DNA of 64,000 nt from Arctopsyche grandis (Eukaryota > Arthropoda > Insecta > Trichoptera > Hydropsychidae): the NCBI RefSeq assembly GCF_051622035.1, contig NC_135364.1:26962501-27026500 (forward strand). The letters are read 5' to 3'. This document shows, one piece after another, positions 4,562 to 64,000 of the stretch. A program made the position numbers and the translations under genes. The number at the start of each line of letters is the position of its first letter. Positions within the stretch are counted from its first letter, which is position 1. Below the pieces are notes generated by a model. The model made no database searches, was not told the DNA's origin, and saw only the letters and a list, made by a program, of their open reading frames with translations.

Positions 4562-7500
4562 ATGGCGGGCTCGCGAATAAGACGACTGTGGACTGTGGCC
4601 AGTTTGGGCGCGGGCGGGTGCGGGGTGGGGACGGCGCTCGCCTATTGGTGGACGCGGCGGGGGGGCGCAGAACCCGCTCTCGCCAGCTGGACCTCCAACT
4701 ACACGCCCAGCGTCCACTGGGACTTCAACTGGGATCAGTCAGTCACTCGCTCACATTACCTAACTCTAGCACTAGCACTCGCACTCCATCTCTCTATCTC
4801 TATCCATACCTTTTGTTTTCAGTCGCGACCCCAAAAGCATAGTCAAGCCGAGCAAAGGCACCGCCGAAGACGACAACAGATACAATTCCGAAATCGAGAC
4901 GTACAAATCCACTTCCGTCCGCCACTTGTTCCTCATTCGACACGGACAATATCATCTCGATGGAAAGACTGACAAAGAACGCATCTTGACGACACTCGGT
5001 ATATCCTCCATTTGTACATTCTTTACACATACTGACTGACTATGCTACGTATTTGAACAAAAATTAATACTATGCAGAATTATGTATATATACTGTAATA
5101 TAAACCACTCGTAGTTTCCGATTACGCCGACGTTCTCAATTATGCCCGACAATCAATTCGACTATTTTTTCTTCGTAACGGATACAATTCTAAAATTACA
5201 TTATTTTAATAATACCTAACGGAATACATCAACATTGCGTTGCTAAGCAAATAATTAAATGGTGTCCATTTTTTTAATAGTAATTTTGGCTCGGGACGAT
5301 ATTAAGTTATGAAAGCACAATAAATCACTACTCTATTGTGTATATAATATTGTTACGTAGGGGTGGGTGGAGGATCCAAGTAAAAGGCCAACAGTCGTCT
5401 TACAGCATTTATTGATGATTAAGGAGATACACGTATTGCCAGTGTTCAGTCCAGAATGACATGATATCGCCTACGTACCGCCTTATAAAGGGTAGATCTC
5501 TCAGGACGCCTAATCTGTTTACCCGTTGTATAGTCACGTATTCGGATATGTATTTCCACGACATTGGATCTCCCCGTACCAATTCTGAGAAATAACTAAT
5601 AACGGTCATTGTTTAGCCTCAATGCACTTAGAGTCAAGATATAATCTTTAGAAGTAAGTGCATGCATTTAGTTAATCCGATAACAGATATCCGTTGGTCT
5701 AAGTGCAATTCGCTCAATCCGCGGCGTATGTAACAATATTCTGAGGTTAACCCTTTGCCCGCGGCAATAAATATAGCGAACAGAAAGGAGTGATCATTGA
5801 CTTATGTTGGCTCTTGCAGATAAAATCATGCAATCCGGCTTCGATGAACCATGGAAAAATGTGTAATTGTGGTAATAATGACTCCTTTCTGTTGCTTTTA
5901 CTTTCCTTTATTTGAAGAAATAGAAGAGGGACTGCCGGCTGGTGTTTGGTGATTGGCACATCACCTATTGAATGTTTAACTGATACTCATATTAATGAAT
6001 GAACGCAGTGCACCGTCGGTAGCCCTCTGTTTATACATTTATAATATATCAGGTGGGGAGCGACCATAACAATATGAAGATTGTCCAAGCTCTATACGCA
6101 GCACGTTTATCGCGAATTTGGCAATCGAGTTTTCGACCGTGAATACAGATTTTAATATTTACTCAAGTAACCAGATATGTTAATTAACACATAAAGTATT
6201 ATTTTAAACAATAAAATACATAATATATCTCGTAGTTTTGGCTTAATTGTCAAATAATCATTCTTCATACAATTGAGACGTATCGTCGCCGTTGTTCAAC
6301 CGACGTGACGTCACATAAATGAGGTTTCAGTATGGTTCCACAAAACCACTAATTTTGACTGGTATATATGCATTTTAAGCAAATTGAATAGATGGCATTC
6401 AACTCTCAGTAATATATTCAACCAATTTTGAACCTTAAAACAGTTGAAATAGTCGCATATAAGGCTCAAAATTCCGTGCAAAGTTCAGAAATTCTATGGA
6501 ATACAGCCGCGCTACAGACTTGTCGCCCAAAGCTTCCATAGAAGACGGCCACGGGCATACAGTTAAATTAGATGCATAGATTGTCGTATATGACATACAT
6601 ATATAATCTGTGTGTTGAACTTAAAATTACAGGGGTTGATGAATAGAACGCTATTTCAATATAAATGCAGATGTTACATCGTTCTATCATACAATTCTAT
6701 GTTGTATAATGAGCTCATCTTCGGAGTATGCCATTTGAATTTTCAACGATTTGTAAGTTTAATTCTACAGATAACAGTAAGCTGTTCATAAAATATGGTA
6801 TAGCGAAATTTCTCACAATTTCTTTAGTGTTTTGAAAAAAAATTCAGGTATAGACGAACCTTCTTGTTAGAAACATTTTTTACTCTCAGAAGTTATAAAT
6901 GCTATTTGGTAAATAAAATTATAAGAAAAATTTGTTAAAAGTTATTATAAATACATGCATATCGAATGGTACCCGAGAGTAAAATGATGCAATTGGAAAT
7001 GGGTGCATGAAATTAGGAAAATTTGTTGGATGAGATGGATGAGAGTTGCCCAAAACAGCTTAGATCCAGAAGTGAATGGCGAATGATGACATATTATGTT
7101 TAATATGAAGTGTGGTACTACAGATTAGTCAATGAGTCCATATTAATCTTTCAATAAGTATTAATTGCTATATGAAAATAAAAATTCGGATGTGACCAAC
7201 CCATGAGTTTATCTACGTATTTGAGGAATATAAGGTAACAAAACAAAATTCGATAAGTAAACATACATACACGTTCACACATACCAATTGTTAGAGCATT
7301 TTCCATACAAATTGAGCGCAAATGTAGGGAAACTTACACAAGACAAAAGTTCTACTTCCAGTTGTCGGATATTATTTGAAATTTTTTTATTACTTAAAAT
7401 CACCATAATTATTATGCATATTAAATATCAAGAAAATAAAAATAATTTAAAAGGTCAAGATAAAATAATGAAATATTGTTTTTTAAAAAAATACTACTTC

Positions 7501-9137
7501 CGGTTTATGAATTCTGACCAAAACCTTATCAGCTCTAAGTCAGTATGTAAAGAATACAAATATAATTTTTCAGCTTGATAAATTTAGGGGTGTGGAAAGA
7601 ATCGTGGTCACAACATATTTGACTTTTCTAAGAGGAAAAAAATCCGTTTCCGGTTTATTAAATTTAGTGATTTTTTTTTTATTTTCATTACAATTGATAC
7701 AAAAATTATACTTGAATTTTTTCGTGACGAACACGCATGTTTAAGGGGTCGAAAAAAATAGTGGAAGAACAATCGAACAAGAATAAACTGCCACTTCCGG
7801 CTAAGGGATGCTTAGCAAATTTTATACATAACTTGGTATTACGCTTTAACTTCTAGATATGAAATTTCAGTTCAATAATCCAAAAGGTTTATGAGATAAA
7901 AACATAAAAAACCTCGATTCTCTAGAGTAAAAGTACTACTTCCGGTTCAGGTAAAAATATTTAAAAAATATTAGGGTATAAAATTTATAATTTCTATTGC
8001 ATGTGAAAAAAATTCGGTCTGAATCGATTAGCGGTTTGGGAGATAATTGAATTCAAAAACTTAAAAAAAAGAGCACACCTATAAGGGGAGGTACCATTTC
8101 CGGTCAACTTAAAAATTTTAAATAAATTTACGTCATATCGATAAGAATTTCAGTGACCGATACTAAGTTTCAGTTCAATAGGACTAACAGTGTTCAAAAA
8201 ATTCCCAAAATACACACACACACAAACACACATTTTTTCTAGATCATGAAAACGTGATCAGTAATCGATTCTGAGCTCGAATCAGTCAAATTTTCGCATG
8301 ATCACCAAACTTCATCTATTGTTACTATGTGCATAGATAAATTAAAAACTTACGAAGCACCATATTCTCTCTTTCTTGTATTTGAATCCACAGACTTAAT
8401 TATCTAAAAGCATGCTTAAATATATCAACAATTATACTATTTTGAAGCTTAATATATAATTGAAATGCAGGTAGAGAACAAGCGGAATTGACCGGAGCCC
8501 GTCTTAAAGAGTTAGGTTATAAATGGGACCGCATGGAACGATCCACAATGACCCGTGCCCAAGAAACGGCCAAACTGATAGCCCAGTATTTAGATCCGGA
8601 ACTGAAGTTCCGAGATTGCAGCTTATTAGAAGAGGGAGCGCCGGTTCCTCCGGAACCACCTATTGGCCGTTGGAAACCAGAACCTTATGTAAAACGACTG
8701 CCCTGATTAATAAAATACACTTTATATTATGAAAAAATCACATCGACCGATTCATTAATGACGTTTGAAATATCCAGCAGTTCTTTCAAGACGGTGCCAG
8801 GATTGAGGCAGCTTTCCGGAAGCATTTCCACCGAGCTAAGCCGTCTCAGACGGATGATACGTTCACGCTGGTCGTCTGCCACGCTAATGTAATTCGCTAC
8901 TTCGTATGCAGGTGCGTCTTTTAGTATTATGTATCATCGCACTCCATTCTTATTTGCATTTGAATGTTTCGATTGATCTGTTTCAGAGCTATGCAGTTCC
9001 CGCCCGAGGCTTGGTTGAGAATCTCTTTGAGTCACGCGTCTATAACGTGGTTGTCCATCTTGCCCAACGGCCGTGTGATCCTTCGAAGTCTCAGCGATAC
9101 CGGCCATATGGAGCCGAGATGTATTACCTCTCAATAG
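4562..9137 (+). CDS. Pgam5: PGAM5-like mitochondrial serine/threonine phosphatase
   Basis: Five exons: 4562-4737, 4823-4998, 8471-8688, 8778-8911 and 8987-9137, all with GT/AG borders and consistent phase, giving 284 residues (recalled insect PGAM5 length is about 290). PGAM5 is a phosphoglycerate-mutase-fold protein that acts as a protein Ser/Thr phosphatase at mitochondrial membranes. A hydrophobic N-terminal segment (about residues 9-30) should anchor it. The multimerisation motif WDFNWD is at 53-58. The catalytic RHG is at 98-100, with STMTRAQET downstream and the second catalytic His at 225 in CHANVIRYF. The ATG at 4562 has a good context (GCGATGG), whereas the in-frame TTG at 4526 is an unlikely start. 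The relative usually has GHGN where this copy has CHAN, a mild change beside the histidine. The exon 4 start could also be 8781, which would drop one Gln. The second intron (3.5 kb) is full of repeats. Confidence 0.95.
5351..5735 (-). mobile_element. Solo LTR (fossil), 385 bp, in a Pgam5 intron
   Basis: It begins TGTTACGTAG and ends GTATGTAACA, flanked by ATAT (5347-5350 and 5736-5739). It is the same length as, and the near-identical reverse complement of, the LTR at 58946-59330, so both belong to one fairly young family. No internal part is attached. The gypsy or BEL type was not decided. Confidence 0.85.
5740..6955. other. Pgam5 intron 2, AT-rich, mostly unassigned
   Basis: 5748 opens with TTAACCCTTTGCCCGC, which resembles a piggyBac-type end, but no partner end was found. 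An inverted pair ACAGAAAGGAGT lies at about 5779 and 5881. The rest shows no recognisable gene or repeat. Confidence 0.4.
6960..7090 (+). mobile_element. LINE (RTE-like) 3' tail fragment
   Basis: The segment ATGGTACCCGAGAG and a following GAGATGGATGAGAGTTGC block match the RTE-like tail at 49735-49880. It is the last part of a reverse transcriptase ORF plus 3' end, decayed and too short to code. Confidence 0.6.
7352..8290 (+). repeat. Diverged ~150-bp repeat array with an ACTTCCGG-like core
   Basis: Six copies of a core, (C)TACTTCCGGTT-like, sit at 7352, 7494, 7644, 7790, 7936 and 8094, spaced 142-158 bp. Between them recur words such as TTTCAGTTCAATA and AAAAAATTC. The array ends with a CA run (8213-8233) and a segment TCTAGATCATGAAAACG. 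The last unit and tail match 29040-29290 in reverse orientation, so the block is a dispersed repeat. Confidence 0.65.
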
Positions 9138-9444: not shown

Positions 9445-9648
9445 AGCTGTATTACCCGGCTTCGCTCAGTGTTTATAATATAAACCGCTTAAACATGACT
9501 AAGCTAATTTAATTAAAAAAAAAAAAAAATTTTAAAATTTTAAAAAAAAATTTTAAAAAAAAATTTAAAAAAAAATTAAAAAAAAATAAAAAAAAAAAAT
9601 CAAAAAAAATTTTTTAAAAAATCAAAAAAAAAATCAAATTTTTTTTTT
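9445..9648 (+). repeat. 'CCCGGCTTCGCTC' repeat and A/T homopolymer tract
   Basis: 9450-9480 contains CTAGCTGTATTACCCGG then CTTCGCTCAGT. This word also occurs at about 48200 and, altered, near 50720 and 20805 (inverted). It is followed by about 130 bases of alternating A and T runs that form the left border of the GC satellite. Confidence 0.5.
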
Positions 9649-10930
9649 TGCCTTCTAGGGCTTCGCCCTCGGCACCCCCCTGAGCCTTTGCCTTCTAGGG
9701 CTTCGCCCCTCCACGCCCCATGAGCAATTGCCGTTTAGGGCTTCGCCCCCATGATCAGTTGCCTTTTAGGGCTTCGCCCCTCCGCGCCCCCATGATTCAA
9801 AGCCGTCTAGGGCTTCGCCCCCCTTAGTTAATGCCTTTTAGGGCTTCGCCCCCCGCGCCCCCAAGATTAATTGCCGTTTAGGGCTTCGCCCCCCTTAGTT
9901 AATGCCTTTTAGGGCTTCGCCCCTCCGCACCCCCATGAATAAATGCCGTCTAGGGCTTCGCCCCCCCTAGTTAATGCCTTTTAGGGCTTCGCCCCCCGCA
10001 CCCCCAAGATTAATTGCCGTTTAGGGCTTCGCCCCCCTTAGCTAATGCCTTTTAGGGCTTCGCCCCTCCGCGCCCCCATAATTAACTGCCGTTTAGGGCT
10101 TCGCCCCCCTTAACTAATGCCTTTTGGGGCTTCGCCCCTCCGCACCCTCATGATTAAATGCCGTCTAGGGCTTCGCCCCCATGATCAGTTGCCGATAAGG
10201 GCTTCGCCCCTCCACGTCCCCATGGTTAAATGCCGTCTAGGGCTTCGCCCCCATGATCAGTTGCCTTTTAGGGCTTCGCCCCTCCACGTCCCCATGGTTA
10301 ATTGCCGTCTAGGGCTTCGCCCCCATGATCAATTGCCGATAAGGGCTTCGCCCCTCCACGTCCCCATGGTTAAATGCCGTCTAGGGCTTCGCCCACATGA
10401 TCAGTTGCCTTTTAGGGCTTCGCCCCTCCGCGCCCCCATGATTAACTGCCGTTTAGGGCTTCGCCGCCCTTAACTAATGCCTTTTGGGGCTTCGCCCCTC
10501 CGCACCCTCATGATTAAATGCCGTCTAGGGCTTCGCCCCCATGATCAGTTGCCGATAAGGGCTTCGCCCCTCCACGTCCCCATGGTTAATTGCCGTCTAG
10601 GGCTTCGCCCCCATTATCAGTTGCCTTTTAGGGCTTCGCCCCTCCGCGCCCCCATTATTAAATGCCGTTTAGGGCTTCGCCCCCCTTAGTTAATGCCTTT
10701 TAGGGCTTCGCCCCTCCGCGCCCCCATTATTAAATGCCGTTTAGGGCTTCGCCCCCCATAATTAATGCCTTTTGGGGCTTCGCCCCTCCGCACCCTCATG
10801 ATTAAATGCCGCCTAGGGCTTCGCCCCCCTTAGTTAATGCCTATTAGGGCTTCGCCCCTCCGCGCCCCCATGATTAAATGCCGTCAAGGGCTTCGCCCCC
10901 ATGATCAGTTGCCGTTTAGGGCTTCGCCTC
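9649..10930 (+). repeat. GC-rich satellite, 72-bp units in a 360-bp higher-order repeat
   Basis: The core AGGGCTTCGCCCC recurs every 30-42 bases. Two half-units (about 40 bp with CCTCCGC-CCCCCATG, and about 32 bp with CCCCCATGATCAGT or CCCTTAGTTAA) alternate to make a ~72-bp unit. The segment from about 10110 recurs at 10470, exactly 360 bases on (five units), nearly unchanged. Each core can form a GGGC/GCCC hairpin. Open frames here are a by-product of the period. Confidence 0.9.
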
Positions 10931-11720
10931 ATAAGGCTGCGCCCCATGGGGCTTCGCCCCATGAGGCTGCGCCCCCTTCGGGGCCCCATAAGGCGGCGCC
11001 CCATAAGGCGGCGCCCCATAAGGCGGCGCCCCATAAGGCTGCGCCCCATAAGGCGGCGCCCCATAAGGCAGCGCCCCATAAGGCGGCGCCCCATGAGGCT
11101 GCGCCCCCCTGCGCCCCCTTCGGGGCCCCATGGGGCTGCGCCCCATGAGGCTGCGCCCCCTTTGGGGCCCAATGAGGCTGCACCCCCTTCGGGGCCCCAT
11201 GAGGCTGCGCCCCCTTTGGGGCCCCATGGGGCTGCGCCCCATGAGGCTGCGCCCCCTTCGGGGCCGCATGCGGCTAAGCTCCATAAGGCGGCGCCCCATA
11301 AGACTGCGCCCCATAAGACAGCGCCCCATAAGGCTACGCCCCATGAGGCTGCGCCCCCCTGCGCCCCCTTCGGGGCCCCATGGGGCTGCGCCCCATAAGG
11401 CGGCGCCCCATAAGGCGGCGCCCCATAAGGCGGCGCCCCATAAGGCGGCGCCCCATAAGGCGGCGCCCCATAAGGCGGCGCCCCATAAGGCTGCGCCCCT
11501 AAGGCTGCGCCCCATAAGACAGCGCCCCATAAGGCTGCGCCCCATAAGGTTGCGCCCCATAAGGCTGCGGCCGATAAGGCTGTGCCCCATAAAGCTGCGC
11601 CCCCTTTTGAGCCCCATGGGGCTGCGCCCCATGAGGCTGCGCCCTCCGGGCCCCCTTCGGGGCCTCACGGGGCTGCGCCCCTTGTGGCGCCCCTGGCGGG
11701 GCCCCATGAAGCTACTCGCG
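10931..11720 (+). repeat. GC-rich satellite, 15-bp units
   Basis: Runs of CCCCATAAGGCGGCG (15 bp) at 10980-11100 and 11390-11560 are separated by longer units around GGGGCTGCGCCCC and CCCTTCGGGGCCCC. The period is a multiple of three and the units lack stops, so open frames occur on both strands (up to about 286 codons on minus). These are not treated as genes. A short related module lies at 40797-40905. Confidence 0.9.
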
Positions 11721-13691: not shown

Positions 13692-15820
13692 TTATGTGTA
13701 AGTTGCGGTCGCTCTTGTAACATTTACTACTGCTCTAGATGAAAGTTCGATGGACTGATCAGTCGCATCGTCTTCTTCTTCCTCTTCGTTCTCTGCCGGA
13801 TCTTCAGGCTCACCCAAAGCATGAACGAACTCTTTAAAAACAATATGGCTTCAGTACACATTTACATATGAATTATTAATAACCTTGTACATGATATACT
13901 CACCGTAGAAATCAATACGACCGTCTCCGTCAACGTCTACTTCTTTTATCATATCTTCAACTAAAATAAAAACAATTGTTTAATACAATTCTACTTGTTC
14001 AAAGTAACTATACATCCCTTCTAAGAATATACTCACTTTCTTCCTCGCTCAAATCTTCACCTAGACATTGCAACACAGCTCGTAGATCCGAAGCACAAAT
14101 GTATCCCCGATTGTGTTTGTCAAACACTCGAAAAGCGTCACGCAGCTCTTGTTCCTCTTGAGCTTCATCGGTGCACTCTTGTGTTGCACCAATGTTTACT
14201 AATATACCGACGAATTCCTCAAAACTCACATTACCATCACCTGCACCGAAGAACAAACGGAGTTACAATACAAATAAACTTAAAACAAACCTTGTTTGAA
14301 GCGCTCACCATCACTGTCCACTTCTTGGAGCATCTCTTGCAATTCTTCACCACGAGCAAACTGACCCAGACTTCGCATGACTCGACCCAGTTCTTCCTTA
14401 GTAATGCTACCATCGCCATCTTTGTCGAACAACCGGAAAGCTTCGCGGAATTCTGGTGAAAATAATAAAAAAAATCACACAGAAGAACAATTCTATCTGC
14501 TTATTTATAGGTGCCATTGTGGTAAATGCTACCCCATTTTGGATCAGTACAAATGTATCTTTGTTTATAGTTTATTCAGGACCGGTTTTAGGGGGGGGGG
14601 GCCGGGTCGGGTGGTGCCCGAGTAAGGGCCAGGCCGCACCGTGCGACTTGCGAGCGACTTGGTTGAGGGCGACCAGACCAATGCATGCAGGTATATGGGA
14701 CATGCTACACCCGTCAACTTGTTTGTTGCACACATTTCGATACATTTTTTCGTGTCGCGCAACTAGTCGGCCGACAAAGTTGCACGGTGCGGCCCAGCCC
14801 TAAGTTTAGTTAAATAAGTAAGGGCGCTGCTCGATGCGCCAAAAGCACTTTGAAATTAAAAATTAGAGCGCCAAAGGTCCTACATTTGTACTCGGCAAAT
14901 TATATTCAAACAATCTACTGGAAAAAGCCGATCTTCAAGTTAAGCTCAAGTTAAGCGAATTCAAAATCTCATATTATTAGCAATGAACGTATCAATTTAA
15001 AAGCCTTTCTTTCCAATAAAGTTCAAGGTAAAATTAATCCATTCATTGTATTAAATTTTATAAAACAGCACAATTTACAGGAATTATATCCAAACATTTG
15101 GGTTTCTATGCTTTTGCTGAAACTGTAGCAAGGTTCCAAGGCCGGGAAAAAATAGGATGGTAATCCACTTTTTCATAATTTTTTTCTAAGGGTGTTTAGA
15201 AAAAATTGCCTAGGGGCGCCATTGGGTGTAAGGCCGGCACTGAGTCTATTCTTAAACCCAAACTCAAACTTATTTAACCTATTCGTTATAAAATACAACC
15301 AGATGCTATACTGAATTAGTAAGTAGTCAAGAAAAATGCATCTCTTTACTTATAAATATTAAAAAGAAGACTAAGATGAGCAAGTTATAGATACATAGTT
15401 CCCAGTCGAAGAAAACCGTTTTAGAAAGCAAACCAGATACGATTCAAGCTAAGGTGGCTGGACTGCAGCATCAGAGATGCAAGATGTTTAGTGCATCCAA
15501 CTGGAAGTCACTCAAATTGAGAGGATATTCTTGGGAGAGGTGATTATGGATTGTCAAAACATTATTTAGGGTTATACATGTTGAAGAGTGTATGTATATG
15601 TTTTTGAGCTACCTTTCATTTGAGTTTTAGAGATTCCAAGGTGAGCCGTTCCGCGAGGTGAGTCTATGTTGGTGGAAGGTCTTGTGAAACTCATCTGCTT
15701 TCCGACTAACCGTGGGACGACCTTTGCAGGAAGAGGTGTTGGCTCCGATGCTGGAGCTGATGGAGAAGTTGGCGGCTGACTTTCAGCCGCCGCTTGACCC
15801 GATCCACGAGTCTGCGACAT
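13692..15820 (-). CDS. Calmodulin-like four-EF-hand protein (CG11638-like)
   Basis: Five exons on the minus strand: 15613-15820, 14309-14452, 14037-14240, 13904-13960 and 13692-13831, with clean splice borders and matching phases, giving 250 residues. It is a cytosolic calcium sensor of the calmodulin superfamily, recalled to match Drosophila CG11638. Residues 1-69 form a Pro/Ser/Ala-rich, probably disordered N-terminal extension that calmodulin lacks. EF loops: [12 protein letters not shown] (79-90), [12 protein letters not shown] (115-126), [12 protein letters not shown] (158-169) and [12 protein letters not shown] (194-205). Loop 3 has non-ligand residues and ends in Asp, so it probably binds calcium poorly. 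A run of acidic residues follows (218-226), then a short variable tail. The start is the ATG at 15820; the in-frame TTG just upstream is unlikely. The recalled Drosophila protein is longer at the N-terminus, so an upstream coding exon cannot be excluded. Intron 1 holds a hAT derivative. Confidence 0.9.
14577..15242. mobile_element. hAT-type non-autonomous element in an intron
   Basis: Ends CAGGACCGG and CCGGCACTG are inverted, flanked by AGTTTATT (14569-14576) and AGTCTATT (15243-15250), an 8-bp duplication with one difference. No transposase remains were recognised. A TAA-target MITE (14626-14800) is inserted near its left end. Confidence 0.8.
14626..14800. mobile_element. TAA-target MITE (Harbinger-like), 175 bp
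   Basis: Terminal inverted repeats of about 22 bp (GGGCCAGGCCGCACCGTG left; inverse of GGGCTGGGCCGCACCGTG right) are flanked by TAA on both sides (14623-14625 and 14801-14803). A 3-bp TAA target with GGGC ends fits the PIF/Harbinger superfamily. It is nested in a hAT element. Confidence 0.75.
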
Positions 15821-16041: not shown

Positions 16042-16206
16042 CGGAGATCTTGTCGTCACTAACTGAGGGGTGCGGGGGGTTTAACTAGCGGGGAAGTTGG
16101 GAAAAAAAAAGGTTTTTTTTCCCTACGACGCAGCGGTCGGCGTTTTTTTCACTTCCCCGCTAGTTAAACCCCCCGCACCCCTCAGTTAGTGACGACAAGA
16201 TCTCCG
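16042..16206. repeat. Perfect 56-bp inverted repeat (foldback)
   Basis: Bases 16042-16097 are the exact reverse complement of 16151-16206, around a 53-base spacer that itself contains facing A and T runs. The arm starts CGGAGATCTTGTCG and is GC-rich, unlike its surroundings. Any transcript would fold into a long hairpin. Confidence 0.95.
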
Positions 16207-17907: not shown

Positions 17908-18115
17908 TGCTCAGAGACTTATTTTACTAGATGAAACATTGGTAGCGAGCAGTATATATAGAAGTTTTTCGTTCATCTGTTATTATGTTCGTATTATATT
18001 CGTACATTTTGTTGGCAGTGTTTTTACATACATATGTCGAATCGAAACGACTATTATAGTATGGCGAGCGTTATCTCACACAGACACACAGAATAGCGCT
18101 ATTATATATATATGA

Positions 18116-18880
18116 TGATATTGAAGAGAAAATCAACGAAATTATAGTGCTTAAATATACAATCGATATTCTGTCTCTTTCTTTCCAATGCAATGCATTG
18201 AAAGAGTAAAGAGAAATAAATATATGTAATTTTCCGCGCCGGGAAACTCGTGCCCGAAGACAATAAAACAATTTAATATTATTTTCAAAAGAAAATTAAT
18301 TTGAGCACTTTTAATACAACAACAACCTCCGTCTATTAATTATTTTATTACTAAACTTTTACTTGTATACGAATTCGTTCGCAACTTTTCGTATACATTT
18401 ATTTTCAAGGATCTCAATAAAAATTATCGCGTATATATTAAACGCACGAGTAATAAAATATTATTTATTAATTTACCCGTTGATAAGTTATCAATACCAT
18501 TTCATATTTAGTGAGGCTATAATTCGAAATTGTTCCATATTGATACATTAATGAAGGCAATAAAATAATTGTTTACACATTTCGGCTCATTTTCTTTTTA
18601 GATACAGTGTACATATGTATATATTAAATATTGCATATCATATACATAGATAAGAGACGTCACTGGGGGATTTGCGAAAAAGGCAACGCCTAAGGGCGGC
18701 ACGTTCTGAAATACGGCAATAGTGATTTATTTCGATATTGCAAAGATAAATTCTTATTTTGGAAACTTTTATATCCAAAACATGAAACTTTTGATTAAAT
18801 TAATTTAAAAAAATCTTCTCGGCACACTATTCTTAAACATGTGCTATTTTTAATGTACATACATATGTATTATACATACA
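18116..18880. other. AT-rich intergenic stretch
   Basis: No gene or repeat family was recognised apart from short TACATATGTA microsatellite-like words. Confidence 0.5.
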
Positions 18881-19277
18881 CTAGTGTTGTAGCCGATAAA
18901 ATAACTTAGCATGGGTTATGGCATATGAAGTTATTAAATTTAAAAAAATGTATATTTAATTTAATATTTATATTTAATATGAAAAAAAGGTAAAAACTAC
19001 CTACCTACCTACATATAAACAATATAAAATACCAATAGAAAAATTATATAATTAATTAAAAAAAAATTTCAATAGATGGCGCTAAATGCTCAGAGACAAA
19101 TTTGCCTAGATGAAACAATGGTAGCAAACAGTATATATAGAAGTTTTTTCCTTTCGTAATTATATTCGTACCTTTTTTTGGCATTGGTTTAGCTGTGACG
19201 TACATATGTATGTATGTCAAATCGAAACGACTAAAGTATGGCGAGCGTTATCTTACACAGACACACACACAGAACAC
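18881..19277 (-). mobile_element. Helitron-like element H2
   Basis: Begins CTAGTGTTGTAGCCG (3' terminus in reverse), followed by the family blocks ACTACCTACCTACC, AATAGATGGCGCTAAATGC and GGCGAGCGTTATCTTACA in the usual order. The terminal hairpin has decayed. No coding part was seen. Confidence 0.65.
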
Positions 19278-19690
19278 AGATCCCCACGCGGCGGAATTTT
19301 TTTCAAATACCTTTTAAATATATTTAATTTAATATTTATATTTCATAATTTAATATGAAAAAAATGGCTAAAACTACCTACCTACCTATACATATATAAC
19401 ATTATGAAACACCGATAGAAAAATTAATTAATTAATTAAATGAATTTTCAATAGATGGCGGTAAATTCTCAGCCAAGCGGAAAGATTGGCATCGACTAGT
19501 ATATATATAGAAGTTTTTTTCTTTTTTTATTATATCCTCGTATACGTTTTAGCAGTGAAGTACATACATACATATGTACATATGTCGAATCGAAACAACA
19601 TTATAGTGTGGCGAGCGTTATCTCAGACAGATAGACAGACAGACAGACGGAATAGCGAAATTATATACGTACATATATGATGATATGATA
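19278..19690 (-). mobile_element. Helitron-like element H3, truncated
   Basis: The same family blocks follow directly after H2 (CAAATACCTTTTAAATAT, CTACCTACCTA, AATAGATGGCGGTAAATTC, GCGAGCGTTATCTCAGAC), with a GACA microsatellite near the end. The CTAG terminus is missing. The tandem placement next to H2 is notable. Confidence 0.6.
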
Positions 19691-19879
19691 TAATTCAATA
19701 CAGAATATGCACTCATTTTTTTATTAAAAATAATCACTTGGGGTGCATTTTAGTGTCATAAAAAGAATTTGAGAATGATTTTAAGCAAATTAGTATCAAT
19801 CATCGCATGGCGACTGATTAATGTATGTAAAATGACAATTTCATAAAGATTAAAATTCATACTAACCATAATTTCTTTT

Positions 19880-20580
19880 ATCTGATTCACCAGGGGTGAA
19901 TCAGTGAAGAATTGATTCACCGCTGAAAATATTTTTCCTTCCAATTTGACAATGGGATTCGAACCGCCGATTGGCGGTGTTGCAAACCCTGCTGCGCCTC
20001 TTCATCCACGGCCTTCGTCCAGTTACGATCCCACTTTCAGATCATCGAATATCACCGTGTAAAATCTGCGAACCAAATGAACAAACGTTGTACTCTAAAC
20101 GCACACCCAATCGGCGTTTATGTCAGCAAACAAATATAATAAAACTTTACGACGTTACGCTAACGAATTACGACAATATTTCGGAAAATTGCACGCCGAA
20201 ATCGGTTAGCTTATATTTTATAATATAATATGTCAACGTGCGAAAGATTTTCATGAAAATATTCGAGCGATTCAACAGATTGTAGCCGGGCTACGTTACA
20301 GAAAGTATTACGTACCGGGAACGTGCCTGCAGTCTGTCGGAAAACTCGGCGATTTTCAGTCGATCCGTGGGGTTTTTTCCGGTGATGATGGCACTTGAAA
20401 TTGGGGTTGAAGGGTTTGAATGGCGAGTAAACGTCAGTCTTTGTAATAAAAATCAATGTGAGGAGGTTCGCAGTGACGTGTTCTAGAAACGGCGCTTCGT
20501 ATCCCACTGAATGGGGATGCTGTTGAATATTTTCCCCAGTCGGCTGGGAAACTGGGTGTCCACACGATGTTCACAAAATC
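19880..20580. other. Moderately GC-richer unassigned block
   Basis: The word TGATTCACC occurs three times near 19886-19922, two copies forming a small hairpin. Open frames on both strands (19971-20228 plus, 20211-20507 minus) have no recognisable domain. Possibly an unclassified repeat. Confidence 0.3.
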
Positions 20581-20639
20581 TTTTCTGAAAATTGAATATT
20601 AGAATTAATCCAGTAAAATATAATATCATCTATATATGT

Positions 20640-20825
20640 ATATAAAATTGAATGTCTGTCTGTGTGTCTCATATAGGGTCCTAAACCAATGAACCGATAC
20701 GATGGAACTTTCAGGATTTGTTGTATGCATGTCCGGGAAGATTACTGTGAAAAAAAAAAGGGAAAACACGGGATTGAGTTTCATTGCAACGCAATAATTT
20801 CAACTCATGCCGGGTTCAGCTAGTA
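20640..20825 (+). repeat. Dispersed repeat ending CGGGTTCAGCTAG
   Basis: It opens ATATATGTATATAAAATTGAATGTCTGTCTG and ends GCCGGGTTCAGCTAGTA. This kind of start and end is familiar from insect Helitron- or RTE-related repeats, but the class cannot be decided here. Confidence 0.4.
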
Positions 20826-20937
20826 TATAAATATAATATCGCTATTCTCTGTGTCTGTCTGCGATAACGCTCACCGTACTATAATGGTAGTTTCGATTCG
20901 ACATAGATATATGTATATACGCCAACGAAACGGACGA

Positions 20938-21500
20938 ATATTTATTTATTTATTTAAAGTTTGGACCATTGTAGCATTACAGGAATTCCTAATGCGCCAC
21001 AGTGGTCAAAAATATAACAGAAAAGAAACAAAATAATAACTAAAGAAATTAGACATTACAAAAACAAAACATATATTGTATATACACAAACAACACATTT
21101 AACACAATCATAAAAATAATAAGCTATATAATAGCGGATAATAATAATAATAACAAATTATAAAAAAAAAACAACAAAGAAGGGAATGTCTTTGTAAAAT
21201 AAAAAAGAGAAAGAAAAATAAATATAAACATATGTACATATACACAGACAAAAATACATTTATACATAATCATAAAAAAAACAATAGCAATTAAGAATAG
21301 TAGATAACGTAAAAATATCAAATATAAAATATAACATAAGGAATGTCTTGCACCTACAGCCAGTTCCAATAAATAGGAACCGACTGCAAATACAAAACAT
21401 CTCTATGAGGGCCAAATGTAAGAGAGTATATCAAAATTCCAATCGTAAATCACAATCAATCATGAAAACAATGATGAGCGCAGACTACCAGACAAATATA
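20938..21500 (-). mobile_element. Probable LINE 3' end, minus strand
   Basis: The left edge is an inverted TAAA-type tail (ATTTATTTATTTATTTAAAG). The following sequence is AT-rich with AATAAATAGGAACCGACTGC near 21368. It interrupts H4. No coding remains were recognised, so the class is tentative. Confidence 0.4.
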
Positions 21501-21761
21501 ATAACTGAAGAAAAAACTTCGATATATACTGTTGGCTACCAATGTTTCCTCTAGGCAAATTAATGTCTGAGCATTTACCGTCATCTATTGAAACTTTATT
21601 TAATTAATTAAATATTTTTTATATTGGTATTTAGGTAGGTAGATTTTACCTTTTTTTCATATTAAATAATTAAATATATTTAAAAGGTATTTGAAAAAAA
21701 TACGACCGCGTGCGGATCGAACATATTTCTTTTTTTAAATTAATAGCTTAATATGTCATAA

Positions 21762-24079: not shown

Positions 24080-25665
24080 TGTTAATACATGCAATATCAT
24101 TTCAATAACCCACTGATAAACATTTTATTATGATATTTATAAGTTAAGAAAAATAGATAGAAAAGTTAATATTTTTTGTGAAAATTCGCATGGTCATTAA
24201 CGGGTTATATATTATATATTCATAATTTACTGTGAAAATTATTCATATACATACATTTTATGTATAAGTACAGCTAATTCGTTTTTTTTAATTTAAATAT
24301 TTAACTTTAACTAAGCGGATAAAACGTATTTACATACTTTTACATAAAATCAATGATTTATTTTTCAATTATGTTTGAGAAATATTTGAATATTAATAAA
24401 TGATATGAAGTAACTTTTACCTCATTTACATATTTTGATATACGATATCAAATATATGTATACATATGTATGTATATACTTACATACATTGTATATAATT
24501 TGATGTTTACTGGCTTTTCTACATAAATAACAAAAAACAAATAGAAAAATATGATAATATTACGATACTTACATGTAATCGAACTCTTTCCGGGATATAA
24601 AATAAGGCTGTAATATGTTTTGCGGAAAAAAATAAGAAATATGACACAGAAAACAATATTAATGGTAGGTTATTTCGCTAAAATGGGCTGTACGTCACGG
24701 AAATGATAAGCGATTCATTTTCCCAAAGCACATACATACATGCATACACAACAGATAAGTACACTCGGATGAAAATTCGGAAAATACCTCGCATATTGGA
24801 AATTGAATCCCATCTCTCAAATCCCAAATTTCAAGGATGTTTATGTAAAACGATCAATATCAACGTTTTCTTCTTATATACAAATTCTCGTCGATTTTAA
24901 AAATACTTTATAGGCTTTTTTAAATATTATTTCTGATATTTTACTCCCTGGAGTTTCTTCCGAGAGTACTAACAGGAAATCACCATTAAAACTTTCAACA
25001 CGACTTTTACGGAAGTATCGGCAAGGCATTCAAATAGGCCTTCCTGTCTCCGGTAAGTCGCATCCGCATCTCTTCAATTATTTATTATACATCTCTATAT
25101 TTGTTCAACGTATTGACATAAAACTACATCTATTAGCGAGAGTATTACGTATAGATAACGGTAACCGTGACACGGAAATATATGGCCATTAAATTCGCTA
25201 TAAATCCAAGACTATCTCTCGCATAACGAAAATACTTTGACCATTGAATAGAACATGAATGAAATATTCTAACAATAATAACTATGTAATGGTGATATAT
25301 ACAGGTACCATACAATATTGAATATTCCGTCAAATTTATACTAAAAATGTATGAAGTTAAAAGTACGTATGTATATTATGTAGGCCGAAAAAAAAACGAG
25401 AATTTTGGGATTCCCATCGGTGGAACTAATAGAAAACATGCTTACGTTGATTCGATTTATTTCGACGAAAAATTAAAAACATTTTTAAGTAAGTAAACGT
25501 ACAATATTCGCCAGTTGCAATTTAATTGGGTAGGTTTTGTTAAGTTTGACTGATTGACGAGAATTCAAAGTGGCCGTTTTACGATAAACTCCCAGACCAA
25601 GCTTCCAACGCCAATTTCCAACGAAAATCATCATTTTTTTTGGTACCCTGACTTCAGACAAACAA
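24080..25665. other. AT-rich intergenic stretch
   Basis: TACATATGTATG-type microsatellite words recur (24470-24500). No gene or dispersed repeat was recognised. Confidence 0.5.
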
Positions 25666-25671
25666 AAACAC

Positions 25672-26440
25672 TTTGACATTACCGCGAGGCGACGAAATCG
25701 CGAGAGACAAAAACCGCGAGTTAATAACCGTGAGAGACATAACCGCGCGGCGACATAACCGTGAGGTTATGTCGGAGTCAAAATTGATTCTTTTTTTTAT
25801 ATATTCTGGTGCAGTTTTGTCGCTGCGTGGTTATGTCTCTCGCGGTTTTGTCGCCTCGTGGTAATGTCGGTGCGCTTTTTTACCGAGTGGTTTTGCCTGG
25901 ACACCTATTTTTTTATATTCCCATCATTATTTTGAAAATAAAAGTCGCGAGAGACATAGCCGCGCGACTATGTCGAAGTCGAAATTGATATTTTAATTTT
26001 TTCATATACATATTCTGGCGTGGTTTGTCGCCGAGCGCCTTTTGCTGTGGTGGTTTTGTCGGCGCGCGGCTATGTATCTCGTGGTTTAACCGTGAGAGAC
26101 ATAACCGCGCGGTTATATCGAAGTCGAAATTGATATTTTAATTTTATCATATATTTTGGCGCGGTTTTTGTCGCCGAGGTCTAACCGTGAGAGACATAGC
26201 CGCGAGAGATATAGCCGCGTGGCAACATAACCGCGCGTTTATATCGAAGTCGAATTGATATATTAATTTTATAATATATTTTGGCGCAGATTTGTCGCCG
26301 ATCACCTTTTGCAGGGGCGATTTTGTCGGCGCGCGGCTATATCTCTCGTCGTTTTGTCACCTCGCGGTAATGTCGGAGCGCTTTTGTACACCCATTTTTT
26401 TATATTCCCATCATTATTTTGAAAATAAAAGTCGTTGAGA
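25672..26440. repeat. Complex inverted and tandem repeat of GACATAACCGCGCG-type words
   Basis: Words such as GACATAACCGCGCGG and CGCGAGAGACATA are packed head to tail at 25676-25762 and inverted at 25812-25873. A core reading TCGAAGTCGAAATTGATAT, followed by an AT stretch and GGCGCGGTTTTGTCG, then recurs about four times. A ~75-bp flank (TTTTTTATATTCCCATCAT) is repeated about 505 bases apart (25905 and 26396). The class is unknown. Confidence 0.8.
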
Positions 26441-38100: not shown

Positions 38101-39981
38101 TAAGCAGAAGCTTAACGACCGAGCTATGCTGCTGGCTATAATATATATCAGTGATATATAATATATATCAGTATATGCCACTGATATATAATATATATCA
38201 GTGGCATGCGGTGAAATTATCTCTCTTTTTGTCATACAGCCTTGTTTAATGTGCGCTTGCAGGATACGGGAGGAAAAGCCTGTTCCTCTTGTTCCTGTTG
38301 TATCCTGCTCGCGTAAATTAAATGAGGATGTACGACGGGGGAAAAGATAGTTTTACCGCATGCCACTGATATACATATATGTATACTAATCATTTTTCAT
38401 ATGTATGCATGGTAAACGAACATTTTCGACTTTTTTACGGTCACCCGTATATATCATATATGTAATATCACTATTTGGTGTATCTGTGTGTGTGCCTGTG
38501 TAAGATAACGCTCGCCGTACTATAATAGTCGTTTATATAATACTACTGTTTTCTACCAATGTTTCCTCTAGTCAAATTAGTCTCTGAGCATTTAGTGTCA
38601 TCTATTGAAAATTTATTAAATAAATAAATAAATATTTTTTTTATTGGTGTTTTATATTGTTTATATATAGGTAGGTAGGTAGTTTTTACCATATTTTTTT
38701 TATACTAAACAATTAAGTATAAATATTGAATTAAATATATTTAAAAGGTATTTGAAAATAATACGACCGCATCGGATCGAACACAGAATTTGCTTTTAAT
38801 TTTTTTTATTTAATAACTTAATATGCCATAACCCATGCGATGATATTTCATCGGGTACAACACTAGTATAATATATCTAAGAATATTTGATCGCGAGGGA
38901 AAATTGAGTTGTAGTAAGCTCAAGTTTCTAACCAGACTGCTTTCACCATGCAACCAGTAAACATTACTTAGTTACATCTGTATCAATATCATGCCACCAT
39001 ATCATTGTACACTTTATATAAATAAATAAGTCAACAATGCCATCTTATACATTTCTTATACTGTTCATAATGTACGAGCAATTTTATAATGACTTTTAAT
39101 TTATTTTTCACAGGAGTGGGCTTGGTTACCCGAAAAATGGGTAATTCAATTTCGCCCGTTGTCGATTTGAAGAAAGAAGGGGATGTATATACTTTCTCTT
39201 CAGCATCCACCTTTAAAAATACCGTAATTACATTCAAATTGGGTGAAGAATTTGATGAAGAGACAGCCGATGGACGCAAAGTAATATTATAATAAATATG
39301 AGAAATTTAAGTACCTTAGTTATGCTTTACATATTTATTTCTTAATTTTTTGATTTCCAGGTGAAGGCTGTTTGTTCTATTGAAGGTAACAAATTGACCC
39401 AAACACAAAAAGGTGATGGTAAAACTACTACTATCATCAGGGAATTTGGAGATGATGAATTAACAGCTGTAAGTTTTGAATTTTGTATACATTTTTATTT
39501 AATCAAAATTATTATTATACATATAATATCGATGCGGTGCAAACGATCGACAAGCGCCAGACAGACTGAACCAGACAGATTAACGACACGTGTACCTTAT
39601 GCGTGCGCACTGCTCGCACTTACACTAAGCGAAATCTACCCGAAGTCCCGACATACCTACCCTGTATACGTTCTGTGCTTCTGATACTTTAGTTCCGAAT
39701 TTTTCCTTATTAAACCCGCCAGAAAGATCCAATTCAATTTTAATAATTGCATCTGTGCACATGGAAAGGTTACTCGTCATCTGATGTGCAATCTATCATT
39801 CGTGAAGTCGAGAATTGCGTTTAAAGAAGCCATCCAGTTAATCTGTGGTTCAGTCTATCTGGCGCTTGTCGATCGTTTGCACCAAACCCACATAATATTG
39901 ATATAACAATTTTTAATTTCATTATAACAGACAATGACAGTGGATGACATCACTTGCACCAGAATTTACAAAGCGCAATAG
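35174..39981 (+). CDS. fabp: Fatty acid-binding protein, upstream copy
   Basis: Four exons: 35174-35246, 39114-39280, 39361-39468 and 39931-39981, giving 132 residues, the normal FABP length. FABPs are cytosolic ten-stranded beta-barrels that carry long-chain fatty acids. The family signature is seen at the N-terminus ([18 protein letters not shown], residues 8-25). Ligand-carboxylate residues are R107 (in [10 protein letters not shown]) and R127-x-Y129 (in CTRIYKAQ). The [12 protein letters not shown] ending is typical. The start ATGG follows CGCC and is the only good in-frame choice. Intron positions (after 24 codons plus one base, then two phase-0 introns) match the classic four-exon animal FABP gene. 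Intron 1 is 3.9 kb and repeat-laden, and intron 3 holds a long-TIR element. A same-strand paralogue starts 1.6 kb downstream. Confidence 0.96.
35247..37725. other. FABP-1 intron 1, left part
   Basis: Ordinary AT-rich intron sequence. No exon with a usable splice pattern or recognisable protein was found. Confidence 0.6.
37727..38141 (-). mobile_element. tRNA-headed SINE, copy S4
   Basis: Inverse tail CAGGAAGGCCTTACAGG (37751), body AACGATCAATCTGGAGTC (38004), inverse box B GGGATTGAACCCGGC (38073), head ending ATGCTGCTGGC. It lies in the FABP-1 first intron. Confidence 0.85.
38199..38368 (+). mobile_element. CAGTGGC-ended MITE, 170 bp
   Basis: Ends CAGTGGCATGCGGTGAAA and the inverse of CAGTGGCATGCGGTAAAA. 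The flanks are AT-alternating, so a duplication cannot be read. The ends suggest hAT. It contains an inverted GCAGGATAC / GTATCCTGC pair. Confidence 0.65.
38455..38866 (+). mobile_element. Helitron-like element H5, most complete 3' end
   Basis: It contains GATAACGCTCGCCGTACT, CCAATGTTTCCTCTAG, GTAGGTAGGTAGTTTTTACC and a perfect terminal hairpin CGATGA-TATT-TCATCG (38838-38853), followed after nine bases by CTAG (38863-38866). A short hairpin just before a CTRR end is the Helitron signature. It is non-coding and lies in FABP-1 intron 1. Confidence 0.75.
39536..39883. mobile_element. Long-TIR DNA element, copy 2 (348 bp), in FABP-1 intron 3
   Basis: The terminal inverted repeats are nearly perfect over about 38 bases (GGTGCAAACGATCGACAAG at both ends). 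The body matches 29479-29837 inverted. It fills most of the last intron and has left both splice sites intact. Confidence 0.8.
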
Positions 39982-40553: not shown

Positions 40554-40796
40554 CTATCTTTTTTTACAATTTTACAATGTATTTTTTATTTAATCAAATA
40601 AAATGAAAATATTTTTTATAAATAGAAATTTGGATTTAGATGAAACGTGTAAATCATGAATGATTAATGTGATAAGGTAAGTAGGATTTATTACATCTGC
40701 ATAGATTTCAATAAGGAAAGCGCTACAGTTATTGGCCACTTAGATTTATATTTATATAAAATAAAAAATATATATATAAAAATATATTTATTTATT

Positions 40797-40925
40797 TTAT
40801 TAGGAGCGGCGCCCCCGACAGGGACCCTATGGGGGCTGCGCCCCCTTCAGCGGGGCCCCATGGGGGGGCAGTGCCCCCAGCGAGGCCCCATCTGGCTGCG
40901 CCCCGTGCGCAAAAAAAAAAATAAA
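40797..40925 (+). repeat. Small GC-rich module related to the satellite
   Basis: GGGGGCTGCGCCCCCTTC, CGGGGCCCCATGGG and CTGGCTGCGCCCCG match units of the 11-kb satellite. Like that block, it is followed by an A-run (about 40910-40924). Confidence 0.75.
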
Positions 40926-41024
40926 TCCAACGTGTTTTTCCCACCCAACCAATGACCACCCAAACCACGCATTGCACATACAAATATACAAACATTAGTG
41001 TATTATATATATTGATTGGGTTAT

Positions 41025-41120
41025 TAGTCACATTGCGGTGGTCACAAAGACAATTTTTGCCATGAAAATCGCCAATGCAGAATATTTGGCACTCGAGTTT
41101 TCGTTAGTATGATAGTTATA
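41025..41120 (-). repeat. Dispersed repeat shared with 34330-34445
   Basis: Inverted match (GCGGTGGTCACAAAGAC, GCCATGAAAATCGCC, TATTTGGCACTCGAG). Confidence 0.55.
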
Positions 41121-46786: not shown

Positions 46787-46888
46787 GTCGTCCACACACA
46801 CGGTATCTACACACGATATTTACCATATCCAGTTCCCATATGGAAAATATCGTAAATATCGTGTGTAGATACCGTGTGTGTGGACGAC
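46787..46888. mobile_element. Hairpin MITE, perfect 37-bp arms
   Basis: 46787-46823 is the exact reverse complement of 46852-46888 (arm start GTCGTCCACACACACGG). The 28-base loop holds CATATCCAGTTCCCATATG, the word shared with 51640-51690. Confidence 0.85.
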
Positions 46889-49299: not shown

Positions 49300-49905
49300 G
49301 CATTTTATTACATGATAAAATAGTAGAAGTAGTAAATAATTATTTATATTTAGGTCAAATAATAGACATGTCCGGTAATAAAGAAGAACATATAAAGAGA
49401 CGTATGAAATTATGATGGGGTGCATTTGGACGACGAATGTCGTTTTTAAATCAAAAAGGCCACTTTGCTTGAAGAAAAAAATCTTCAATCAATGCGTTTT
49501 GCCACTGATGACGCATGGATGCAAAACTTGGACATCGAACGCCAAGATGCTTCATAAAGTCCAATGCACTCAAAGAAGTATGGAACGCTGTATGCTTGGC
49601 ATAACGAGGAAAGACAGGAATAGGAACACGTGGGTGAGAAGTATGACAAAAGTAGTGGATAGAGTAAATATATTGAAATGGCAGCGGTCGGGCTACGTGG
49701 CTAAAAGAATGGACGTAGACAAAATAAGCACTAGAATGGTACCCGAGAGAATCCAAAAGGATAAAGGAAGACCACAGGTAAGTTGGGTAGACGAAATTAG
49801 GAAAATGTGTAGGTGAGATGGATGAGAGTTGCACAAAACAGAGACAAGTGGAAGCGTGTTGGACAGGCCTCCATCCAGCAGTGGATGATGAGTGACTGTA
49901 GATGA
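49300..49905 (+). mobile_element. LINE (RTE-like) 3' portion
   Basis: An upstream frame (49314 on) reads NNYLYLGQIIDMSG. The 134-codon frame 49412-49816 reads MTHGCKTWTSNAKM, SMERCMLGITRKDR and GRPQVSWVDEIRKM, the familiar C-terminal part of RTE-type endonuclease/reverse transcriptases. The two frames are not in register, and an in-frame stop interrupts the first. It ends in GATGATGATGATGA. Defective, 5' truncated. Confidence 0.85.
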
Positions 49906-52783: not shown

Positions 52784-52879
52784 TAAAACGTTCTGAAATG
52801 CTTTAAATTTATTAGGAGGTAAACATACAGTTGTTTTGCAATATTGTCTTATTCTAATTTGATAGAATCGAAACATACA

Positions 52880-53442
52880 CGACAGTGCCGCGCCGACATA
52901 TCTGCGCAGGATAAAGCCGCGCTGAAATATCCGCGCAGGACAATTCCACGCCGACAATGCAGCGCTGACATAAGTATTTGCTCAGGTCGAAAGAAAATTC
53001 ATATGTATTATATTTTATATCCAATAATATTTATAGCATAATTAGACATTTTTGATTTTTAGTGACAGGCGTCTACTATTTAACCCTTTGCAAATTATTA
53101 TAAGTGTGATTATTGCCAGGTAGTTTGTTTTCGAAGTATGAGAAATAAATTTCGAATTTTTTTTTGCCCCATAAAATTATTGCAATATTAAAACCGGCTT
53201 ACTAAATTTTTTTAAACTTGTTATTGAATTTTAAAAATAGTGGAAATCTCGGTGTACAAAATCCAAAAAACCCTAGTAAATTTCTATCGATGAGCAGTTC
53301 TGCATAATCGAGTAAACCAAAAAGAATTTCTTTTTATTAGATTTTTTTGTTTTTTTTTCTGCGCGGCTTTGACGGGGTTTTTCTACGCGGCCCTGTTATG
53401 CCCTGGTATGTTGGTGCGCCAATGTCGTGCGCGGCATTGTCG
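52880..53442. mobile_element. Element with arms of GACATATCTGCGCAG-type words, 563 bp
   Basis: The left arm (52880-52990) and right arm (about 53365-53442, inverted) are built of ~15-bp words mixing GACA and GCGC parts. The outer ends CGACAGTGCCGCGC and the inverse of CGACAATGCCGCGC match. The core is AT-rich and non-coding. Architecture like 25672-26440 and 62977-63640. Confidence 0.65.
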
Positions 53443-53471
53443 AGTCACCGCTTTATATATTTACATATAAA

Positions 53472-62976: not shown

Positions 62977-63640
62977 TTTCACGACTAAACGTTCACCGAC
63001 AAAACATTCATCGACATAATGTCCACGATAGGACGTCAGAGACAAAATGCTCACACGATGGAACGTTCGCAAACATAACGTCACAGTCAAAACGTTCACG
63101 CGACAGAATGTTCGCTTATAATATGATTTTTTAAATGTAATTATCAAAAAATAATTATAACCAGTTGCAGCTCGTTTATAAGAATTCCAGCGCTGCATCA
63201 ACCTTAAGAAAAATTACGAAAAACATGCATTTACAATTTGTGAATACAAATGCAATAAAAATGATTAGATATTTAACATACTCATTATTAATGAGTATGT
63301 CAAATATCTAAATGCAAGTTGAACATGAAATTTTTGTTTACTGCGGCTTCTATGCACGAACCGCCACTGAAAAAAAGAAGAAAAATATTTCGCACACTTA
63401 AAATCCACAGTATATACATATATCGAATTCTTGATATATAAGTTATTTTTATGAAAAAAAAAATCATTTTTGAACGTTTTGTAGGTGGACATTCTGTCGT
63501 GTAACACGTGTAAACGTTCTGTCGTTTACTTGTTCGTGAGTGTTTTGTGAACGTTCTGTCGTGGACATTTAGCCGATGAGCATTCGGACCGTGAACGTTT
63601 TGTCCGTGAATGTTTTGTCCGTGAATATTTTGTCGGGGCA
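62977..63640. mobile_element. Element with arms of GACAAAACGTTCAC-type words, ~660 bp
   Basis: The left arm (62977-63120) has about nine words such as CGACAAAACATTCAT and GACATAATGTCCACG. The right arm (about 63485-63640) has the same words inverted (GTGAACGTTTTGTCCG). Between them lie AT-rich sequence and a 21-bp hairpin. Non-coding. Confidence 0.65.
63266..63310. repeat. 21-bp hairpin inside the word-array element
   Basis: TAGATATTTAACATACTCATT pairs with 63290-63310 at 20 of 21 positions around a 3-base loop. Confidence 0.8.
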
Positions 63641-63644
63641 CTGG

Positions 63645-64000
63645 TCTGGGCACTGGTCTGGGCACTGGTATCGGGATACATGGTCTGGGTGACAAAATCA
63701 TACTCATTAATGACATGAGCATCATTCATACAGAGTTTTCAGATACTTGAGCATTTACTCGACCCAAGCATGCAAATCTAACCATTCACTCACACAAATT
63801 AATAATTTAATTTGATCTGAAAATGTCTTAAAGATCTGGAATTCATACTTCATTAAGTATTAGTGGTATACATATTATGTATATGTAGATCACAAAGCTG
63901 GTGTTATATTGAAGTCTAGACCTGTCACATTGATTCTAGGAGGCCGCATGTCCGGCCATTTTATTATATTCTCTGCACGCTCACGATGTCCGCATGCAAG
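63645..64000. other. Unassigned right edge
   Basis: A triple GGGCACTGGTCT-type direct repeat (63635-63670) abuts the word-array element. Otherwise no feature was seen. Confidence 0.4.

Follow-up and report, generated by a model that had tools for sequence, protein, structure and literature searches.

Three elements with foldback-like inverted arms of ~15-bp words in a 64-kb window of the caddisfly Arctopsyche grandis

Features of the locus

The window, the whole 64-kb stretch of Arctopsyche grandis DNA analysed here, contains three elements, E1 (25662-26389), E2 (52880-53443) and E3 (62982-63636), in each of which words of ~15 bp run forward through a left arm and inverted through a right arm, with an AT-rich middle between the two. 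The E1 word is approximately GCGACATAACCGCGC. The parts of the elements are as follows.

E1
25662..25775, plus strand: outer left arm; by the word model, five forward words and one opposed word (25673-25775)
25772..25808, no strand: core copy 1 (TCGGAGTCAAAATTGATTC plus AT-rich sequence)
25809..25899, minus strand: proximal right arm; four strong inverted words (25809-25870) and two weaker ones further out
25898..25947: AT-rich 50-bp flank, first copy
25948..26180: internal duplicated units with core 2 (from 25973) and core 3 (from 26118); the words here point both ways
26182..26283: unit 4, with core 4 (from 26244), forward words at 26191-26236 (three) and a single opposed word
26284..26389, minus strand: distal right arm, collinear with the left arm
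26385..26434: second copy of the 50-bp flank

E2
52879..52968, plus strand: left arm; six forward words (five at a stricter cut), consensus approximately CCGACAATGCCGCGC, steps of 14-15 bp
52969..53355: AT-rich middle
53356..53443, minus strand: right arm; five inverted words (three at a stricter cut)

E3
62981..63114, plus strand: left arm; seven forward words, 15-bp consensus approximately CCGACAGAACGTTCA
63115..63470: AT-rich middle, holding a 23-bp palindrome, 96% (63265-63311)
63471..63636, minus strand: right arm; ten inverted words (nine at a stricter cut)

Elsewhere in the window two exon-like open reading frames carry Pfam domains, a histidine phosphatase domain at 8464-8703 and EF-hand domains on the minus strand at 14011-14262; short frames of this sort suit eukaryotic, insect-like nuclear DNA. 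The former we take to resemble PGAM5, and a candidate for its first exon lies near 4776-5036. The start of the frame at 39346-39681 presumably resembles an exon of a fatty-acid-binding protein and the frame at 49382-49813 presumably the C-terminal region of a LINE reverse transcriptase, both being frames to which Pfam gave no match. Approximately 2 kb of GC-rich arrays (9647-11644) are made up of 72-bp and 31-bp units with GGGCTTCGCCCC, followed by 15-bp units, e.g. GGCGCCCCATAAGGC; they yield the longest open reading frames of the window, which look like repeat artefacts. The translation of 40668-41103 resembles, on reading, the one given by the 11-kb GC-rich array, and the region is possibly a dispersed copy of that array. 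Other inverted repeats in the window are a perfect 56-bp repeat with a 53-bp spacer (16042-16206), perhaps a young hairpin or MITE-like sequence, a 42-bp repeat, 98% complementary, with an 18-bp spacer (46787-46888), and several long inverted pairs at 18028-21718 (up to 92 nt, 88%), most of them 2-2.7 kb apart and perhaps belonging to a large inverted duplication.

Anatomy of the elements

The left outer edge of E1 lies ~10 bp beyond the boundary given in the original prediction. Further degenerate words can be seen by eye in the outer left arm near 25662 and 25719, and the arm closes with two opposed words that form an imperfect palindrome (25752-25773). Across E1 a 22-bp palindrome made of two opposed words recurs in four imperfect copies, and the word steps alternate between 15 and 16. 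In register the outer arms are 80% identical over 46 bp, falling to at most 57% out of register (slides up to 35 bp); the corresponding inverted repeat of 46 nt, 80% complementary, pairs 25662-25707 with 26342-26387.

It had been predicted that the core of E1 occurs about four times, and four copies do align to one another, the 19-mer taken as the core being exact in two of the four (25973 and 26118), one base short at 26244 and substituted at 25772. A flank of 75 bp, said to be duplicated 505 bp apart, was recovered by computation as a 76-nt pair, 82% identical, at a distance of 506 bp. A second duplicated stretch, the 50-nt pair of flanks, is 96% identical and 487 bp apart. The simplest account of the four cores would be that a single arm-core-arm unit was duplicated in tandem and carried 50 bp of flank with it.

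For the E2 arms the best alignment (70%) needs a shift of roughly one word, identity in register being only 48%, so that unequal gain or loss of words seems likely. No open frames of at least 75 aa lie within its middle. The arms of E3 are 80% identical in register over 46 bp and 70-74% identical when shifted by roughly one or two words. A 12-bp repeat, GTCTGGGCACTG, adjoins the right end of E3 in approximately three copies (63632-63669); it may have overwritten any target duplication there.

Statistics of the word arrays

A word model was trained on each element and set against 200 dinucleotide shuffles of that element, retrained identically, with a cut-off of at least 9 bits. Words above this cut-off numbered 28 in E1, 8 in E2 and 16 in E3, against shuffle maxima of 8, 7 and 10, the count for E2 exceeding the maximum by one word. 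Same-strand neighbours 14-17 bp apart numbered 12, 5 and 10, against maxima of 1, 1 and 2. Words of ~15 bp running head to tail and then inverted, which had been noticed in E1 by inspection, are thus confirmed by counts and steps beyond those of every shuffle, as are the two further elements that had been assigned the same plan of arm, middle and arm. All words had also been described as pointing from the outside inward. The strand strings of E2 (+++++---) and E3 (+++++++---------) agree with this, but that of E1 (+++++------+----+--+++------) is mixed inside, where several cores sit.

Models trained on the left arm alone picked out, on the opposite strand, the element's own right arm. In E1 there were 5 matches to the right arm (equalled by 0.6% of 500 shuffles) and 5 to the distal right arm (0.2% of 500), in E2 there were 6 and in E3 10, both equalled by none of 500 shuffles. 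The E2 left-arm model also had 2 matches on the unexpected strand of the E2 right arm (3.8% of shuffles). The tables of consensus and word relations kept 23 of 31 words in E1, 11 of 12 in E2 and 16 of 18 in E3, mostly weak words being dropped, and the consensus figures are therefore sharper than the raw word lists; the shuffle-retrained word counts and the matches of the left-arm models are independent of this selection.

A motif-free scan for tandem self-similarity at 14-16 bp, which covers the 64-kb window with no selection of words, placed one arm of each element among its top 11 ranks (E3 fifth, E1 eighth, E2 eleventh). The other eight of these ranks were taken by the GC-rich array (four peaks), an A-rich tract and repeats of GTGAGCA, GAC and TG. 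The remaining arms were weaker, the E1 proximal right arm falling in the top 2.2% of positions, the E3 left arm in the top 3.5% and the E2 right arm in the top 5.7%. Single strands of the elements fold better than shuffles, as inverted arms must, with z-scores of -11.6 for E1 (20 shuffles), -7.9 for E3 (20) and -4.6 for E2 (100).

Relations between the word families

The E1 and E2 words match mutually (P 0.0005 and 0.001, shuffled consensus). Words of the E1 left arm matched the two arms of E2 on the expected strand, at a number of places reached by none of 500 shuffles. The reverse comparison is less clear-cut. Words of the E2 left arm had 4 matches in the E1 proximal right arm (0 of 500 shuffles), but in the E1 left arm they had 3 matches on the expected strand (3.0% of shuffles) and 3 on the other (0 of 500), an effect, perhaps, of the opposed word at the end of that arm. 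E1-left words also had 5 matches in the left arm of E3 (0 of 500 shuffles) and 3 in its right arm (11.8%). E3 words found nothing beyond chance in the arms of E1 and E2 (best 8.4%, expected strand), E2-left words had no matches in the E3 arms and E3 words do not match E2 words, while the comparison of E3 with E1 words gave P 0.0255 in one direction and 0.47 in the reverse. A word family shared by all three elements holds for E1 and E2, with E3, for which the results conflict, attached only weakly.

All three words share a CGACA start, which is suggestive, but the elements had been picked partly by that start in the original prediction. The E2 model chains 8, 5 and 15 words in one direction within the GC-rich array (10985-11600), where the E1 model chains only two; the E2 model is thus not specific, and the likeness of E1 to E2 may in part be one of G+C-rich make-up. 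A speculative reading, to which we give rather little credence, is that E1-E3 are branches of one lineage, in which the CGACA-AA half of the word would be fixed as a transposase contact and the other half would turn over in concert across both arms, giving rise to new word families within one genome that do not cross-react. The wider interest of the elements lies in whether word families within one genome trace shifts in the binding specificity of transposases.

Further copies, target duplications and coding capacity

Matches to the word models outside their own element, compared with one shuffled window each, numbered 57 vs 46 for E1, 142 vs 87 for E2 and 72 vs 72 for E3, the excess for E2 being due at least partly to the GC-rich array. 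Beyond E1-E3 the models chain in one direction only in the 64-kb window, and do so in that array.

Target duplications were sought as 8-, 9- and 10-mers with five pairs of ends and flanks of up to 30 bp, and no convincing target site duplication of 8-10 bp was found at E1, E2 or E3 within this range; a narrower search likewise gave none. The best 9-mers carry 3 mismatches at E2 and 4 at E3. The flanks of E1 share an exact 9-mer, CATTTTTTT, at distances of 21 and 5 bp from the arms (1.5% of 400 random pairs of places reach 0 mismatches); they also share, 22 bp out on either side, a 10-mer that differs at one position (at most 1 mismatch in 2.5% of 400). These candidates are discounted because they are T-rich, lie partly within the duplicated flank and come from five end pairs at three lengths.

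No transposase domain was detected by Pfam in 84 of the 103 window frames of at least 75 aa, nor in five more frames at E1 and E3; 14 window frames lay outside the scans, eight of them in the GC-rich array. The 84 frames gave EF-hand and histidine-phosphatase families only. The five frames at E1 and E3 gave nothing above the Pfam cut-off, the sub-threshold match being to a bacterial immunity family (E 0.082, 13.7 of 27 bits). The AT-rich middles of the three elements differ from one another on reading and, on these results, are variable and non-coding.

Three GACAWAA words were found together in at least 50 stretches of IMG/VR, but in the 500 bp on each side of the first match 0 of 50 had at least three such words with both orientations represented, and the matched strings look, on reading, like simple or in-frame repeats. 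The exact E1 word pair, E1 core, E3 word pair and palindrome each had 0 matches in IMG/VR. In GTDB the E1 word pair occurred in 10 contigs; within 90 bp either side of the first match, all 10 look like coding repeats of bacteria or pairs arising by chance, and none shows an inverted array. Both collections are prokaryotic or viral, so that these negatives say little about eukaryotes. Six word-like strings occurred in none of the papers searched, a text collection with no repeat catalogue in its scope. Coding repeats of the pentapeptide type, which share the 15-bp period (a Planctomycetota match looks, on reading, like such a repeat), were rejected as a candidate, since the steps in E1 switch between 15 and 16 and the arms run in opposed orientations.

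Origin of the elements

E1-E3 have a foldback-like form, with inverted terminal arms composed of short tandem repeats. They are very probably decayed, non-autonomous copies of DNA transposons, and in the light of the search for target duplications they are filed under the structural kind alone. Long terminal inverted repeats (TIRs) that hold short subterminal tandem repeats (9-15 bp), a feature common though not universal in Aedes members of Mutator/Phantom, are likewise present, and by analogy that lineage is our best guess, if one held with modest assurance. On this reading each arm would be a TIR enlarged as a ~15-bp word was duplicated in tandem. The word is most likely a site bound by the transposase of an autonomous element that is absent here and probably belonged to the Mutator/Phantom lineage. 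Multiple words could then load several transposase molecules at each end, allowing both ends to be paired and cut. E1 would later have undergone tandem duplications in its repeat-rich unit, by slippage or unequal exchange, giving four cores and a copied flank. Of the two functions originally suggested for the arrays, transposase binding is, by this analogy, the most likely.

The words might instead be the seeds of a local minisatellite or satellite, amplified by slippage, inverted by chance and never transposed. The lack of convincing target duplications fits such an origin, as do the clear local duplication inside E1 and the presence in the same window of a large one-way array of 15-bp GC-rich units (10.9-11.6 kb) in which the E2 model chains. 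Slippage in one direction does not, however, yield inverted arms; three separate loci have an identical order of arm, middle and arm, the words of E1 and E2 are related though 26 kb apart, and the arms of E1, like those of E3, are collinear. A minisatellite origin is therefore unlikely. The other function originally suggested, that of replication or recombination sites, such as the integration of an insect virus carrying repeated palindromes might leave, is highly improbable. Insect viruses of that type carry palindromic repeats and E1 has its four imperfect 22-bp palindromes, but this palindrome is absent from the listed repeats of E2 and E3, the strings from E1 and E3 had no exact match in IMG/VR and the 84 frames held no more than the two families given above; nothing was found in favour of the suggestion.

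A transposon with array arms from another superfamily (P/Galileo-like, hAT, piggyBac or unknown) would differ from the Mutator/Phantom reading in lineage only, and is a possibility of lesser but appreciable weight. The lineage of E1-E3 is fixed neither by a transposase nor by the length of a duplication, and the foldback form spans lineages, Galileo being described with a P-type transposase (PMC3688188). Against this, it is for Mutator/Phantom elements of Aedes and Meloidogyne that a repeat unit of 12-15 bp is described, and the sites of Galileo are described as lying within much longer repeats.

Comparison with known elements

The original prediction knew of no transposon class with such word arrays, a premise that proves wrong because Mutator elements with array arms are in print from Aedes and Meloidogyne, namely Muta1, Muta5 and Tm1 (PMC5225508, PMC3169594). 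Among the long-TIR Mutator families described from Aedes aegypti, 10 of 12 have subterminal tandem repeats of 9-15 bp (PMC5225508). Muta1, which is termed a type 2 foldback element, has 145-bp TIRs with nine 12-bp repeats separated by spacers of 3-4 bp, a period of 15-16, and Muta5 has nine 15-bp repeats per TIR, the TIRs of the two measuring 145-151 bp; both have non-autonomous derivatives with varied middles and the number of repeats in Muta1 is variable (PMC5225508). E1-E3 resemble these elements in having arms of short repeats, a likeness in the described plan and repeat length. Muta1 and Muta5 are also described with a terminal motif outside the array and target duplications of 8-9 bp, neither of which is established at E1-E3.

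Tm1 of Meloidogyne, a Mutator/foldback element, has arms composed mainly of tandem words of 13-15 bp; MITE-like members are described and one member encodes a Phantom-like transposase (PMC3169594). The number of words differs between its ends, as it does in E2 and E3. Tm1 is described with 9-bp duplications and 7-bp end motifs, unlike E1-E3, and its word CGATTCAGTATCCGC does not match the words of E1, E2 or E3 beyond chance (P 0.78, 0.52 and 0.14). The Muta elements have been grouped with Phantom, aphid members of which are described with a minisatellite after the transposase (PMC6446971).

Binding of a transposase to repeats within TIRs is described for Galileo, a Drosophila element of the P superfamily, in which the repeats hold several transposase sites, one demonstrated by footprint and two by gel shift; the discussion of the same paper treats the tandem repeats of Foldback and Phantom as untested in this respect (PMC3688188). 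The TIR of Galileo is ~1.2 kb with long repeats, whereas each arm of E1-E3 is a continuous array at 15 bp. Tetris, a foldback element of Drosophila virilis, is described as having no apparent coding capacity and TIR tandem repeats that expand, as those of E1 seem to have done, but differs from E1-E3 in its unit of ~220 bp, its duplications of 8-10 bp and its arrays of kilobases (PMC4079207). Elements with array arms are thus a described kind of foldback/Mutator transposon, which closes the question raised by the original prediction; the array words of E1-E3 are new and the kind of element is an ordinary one.
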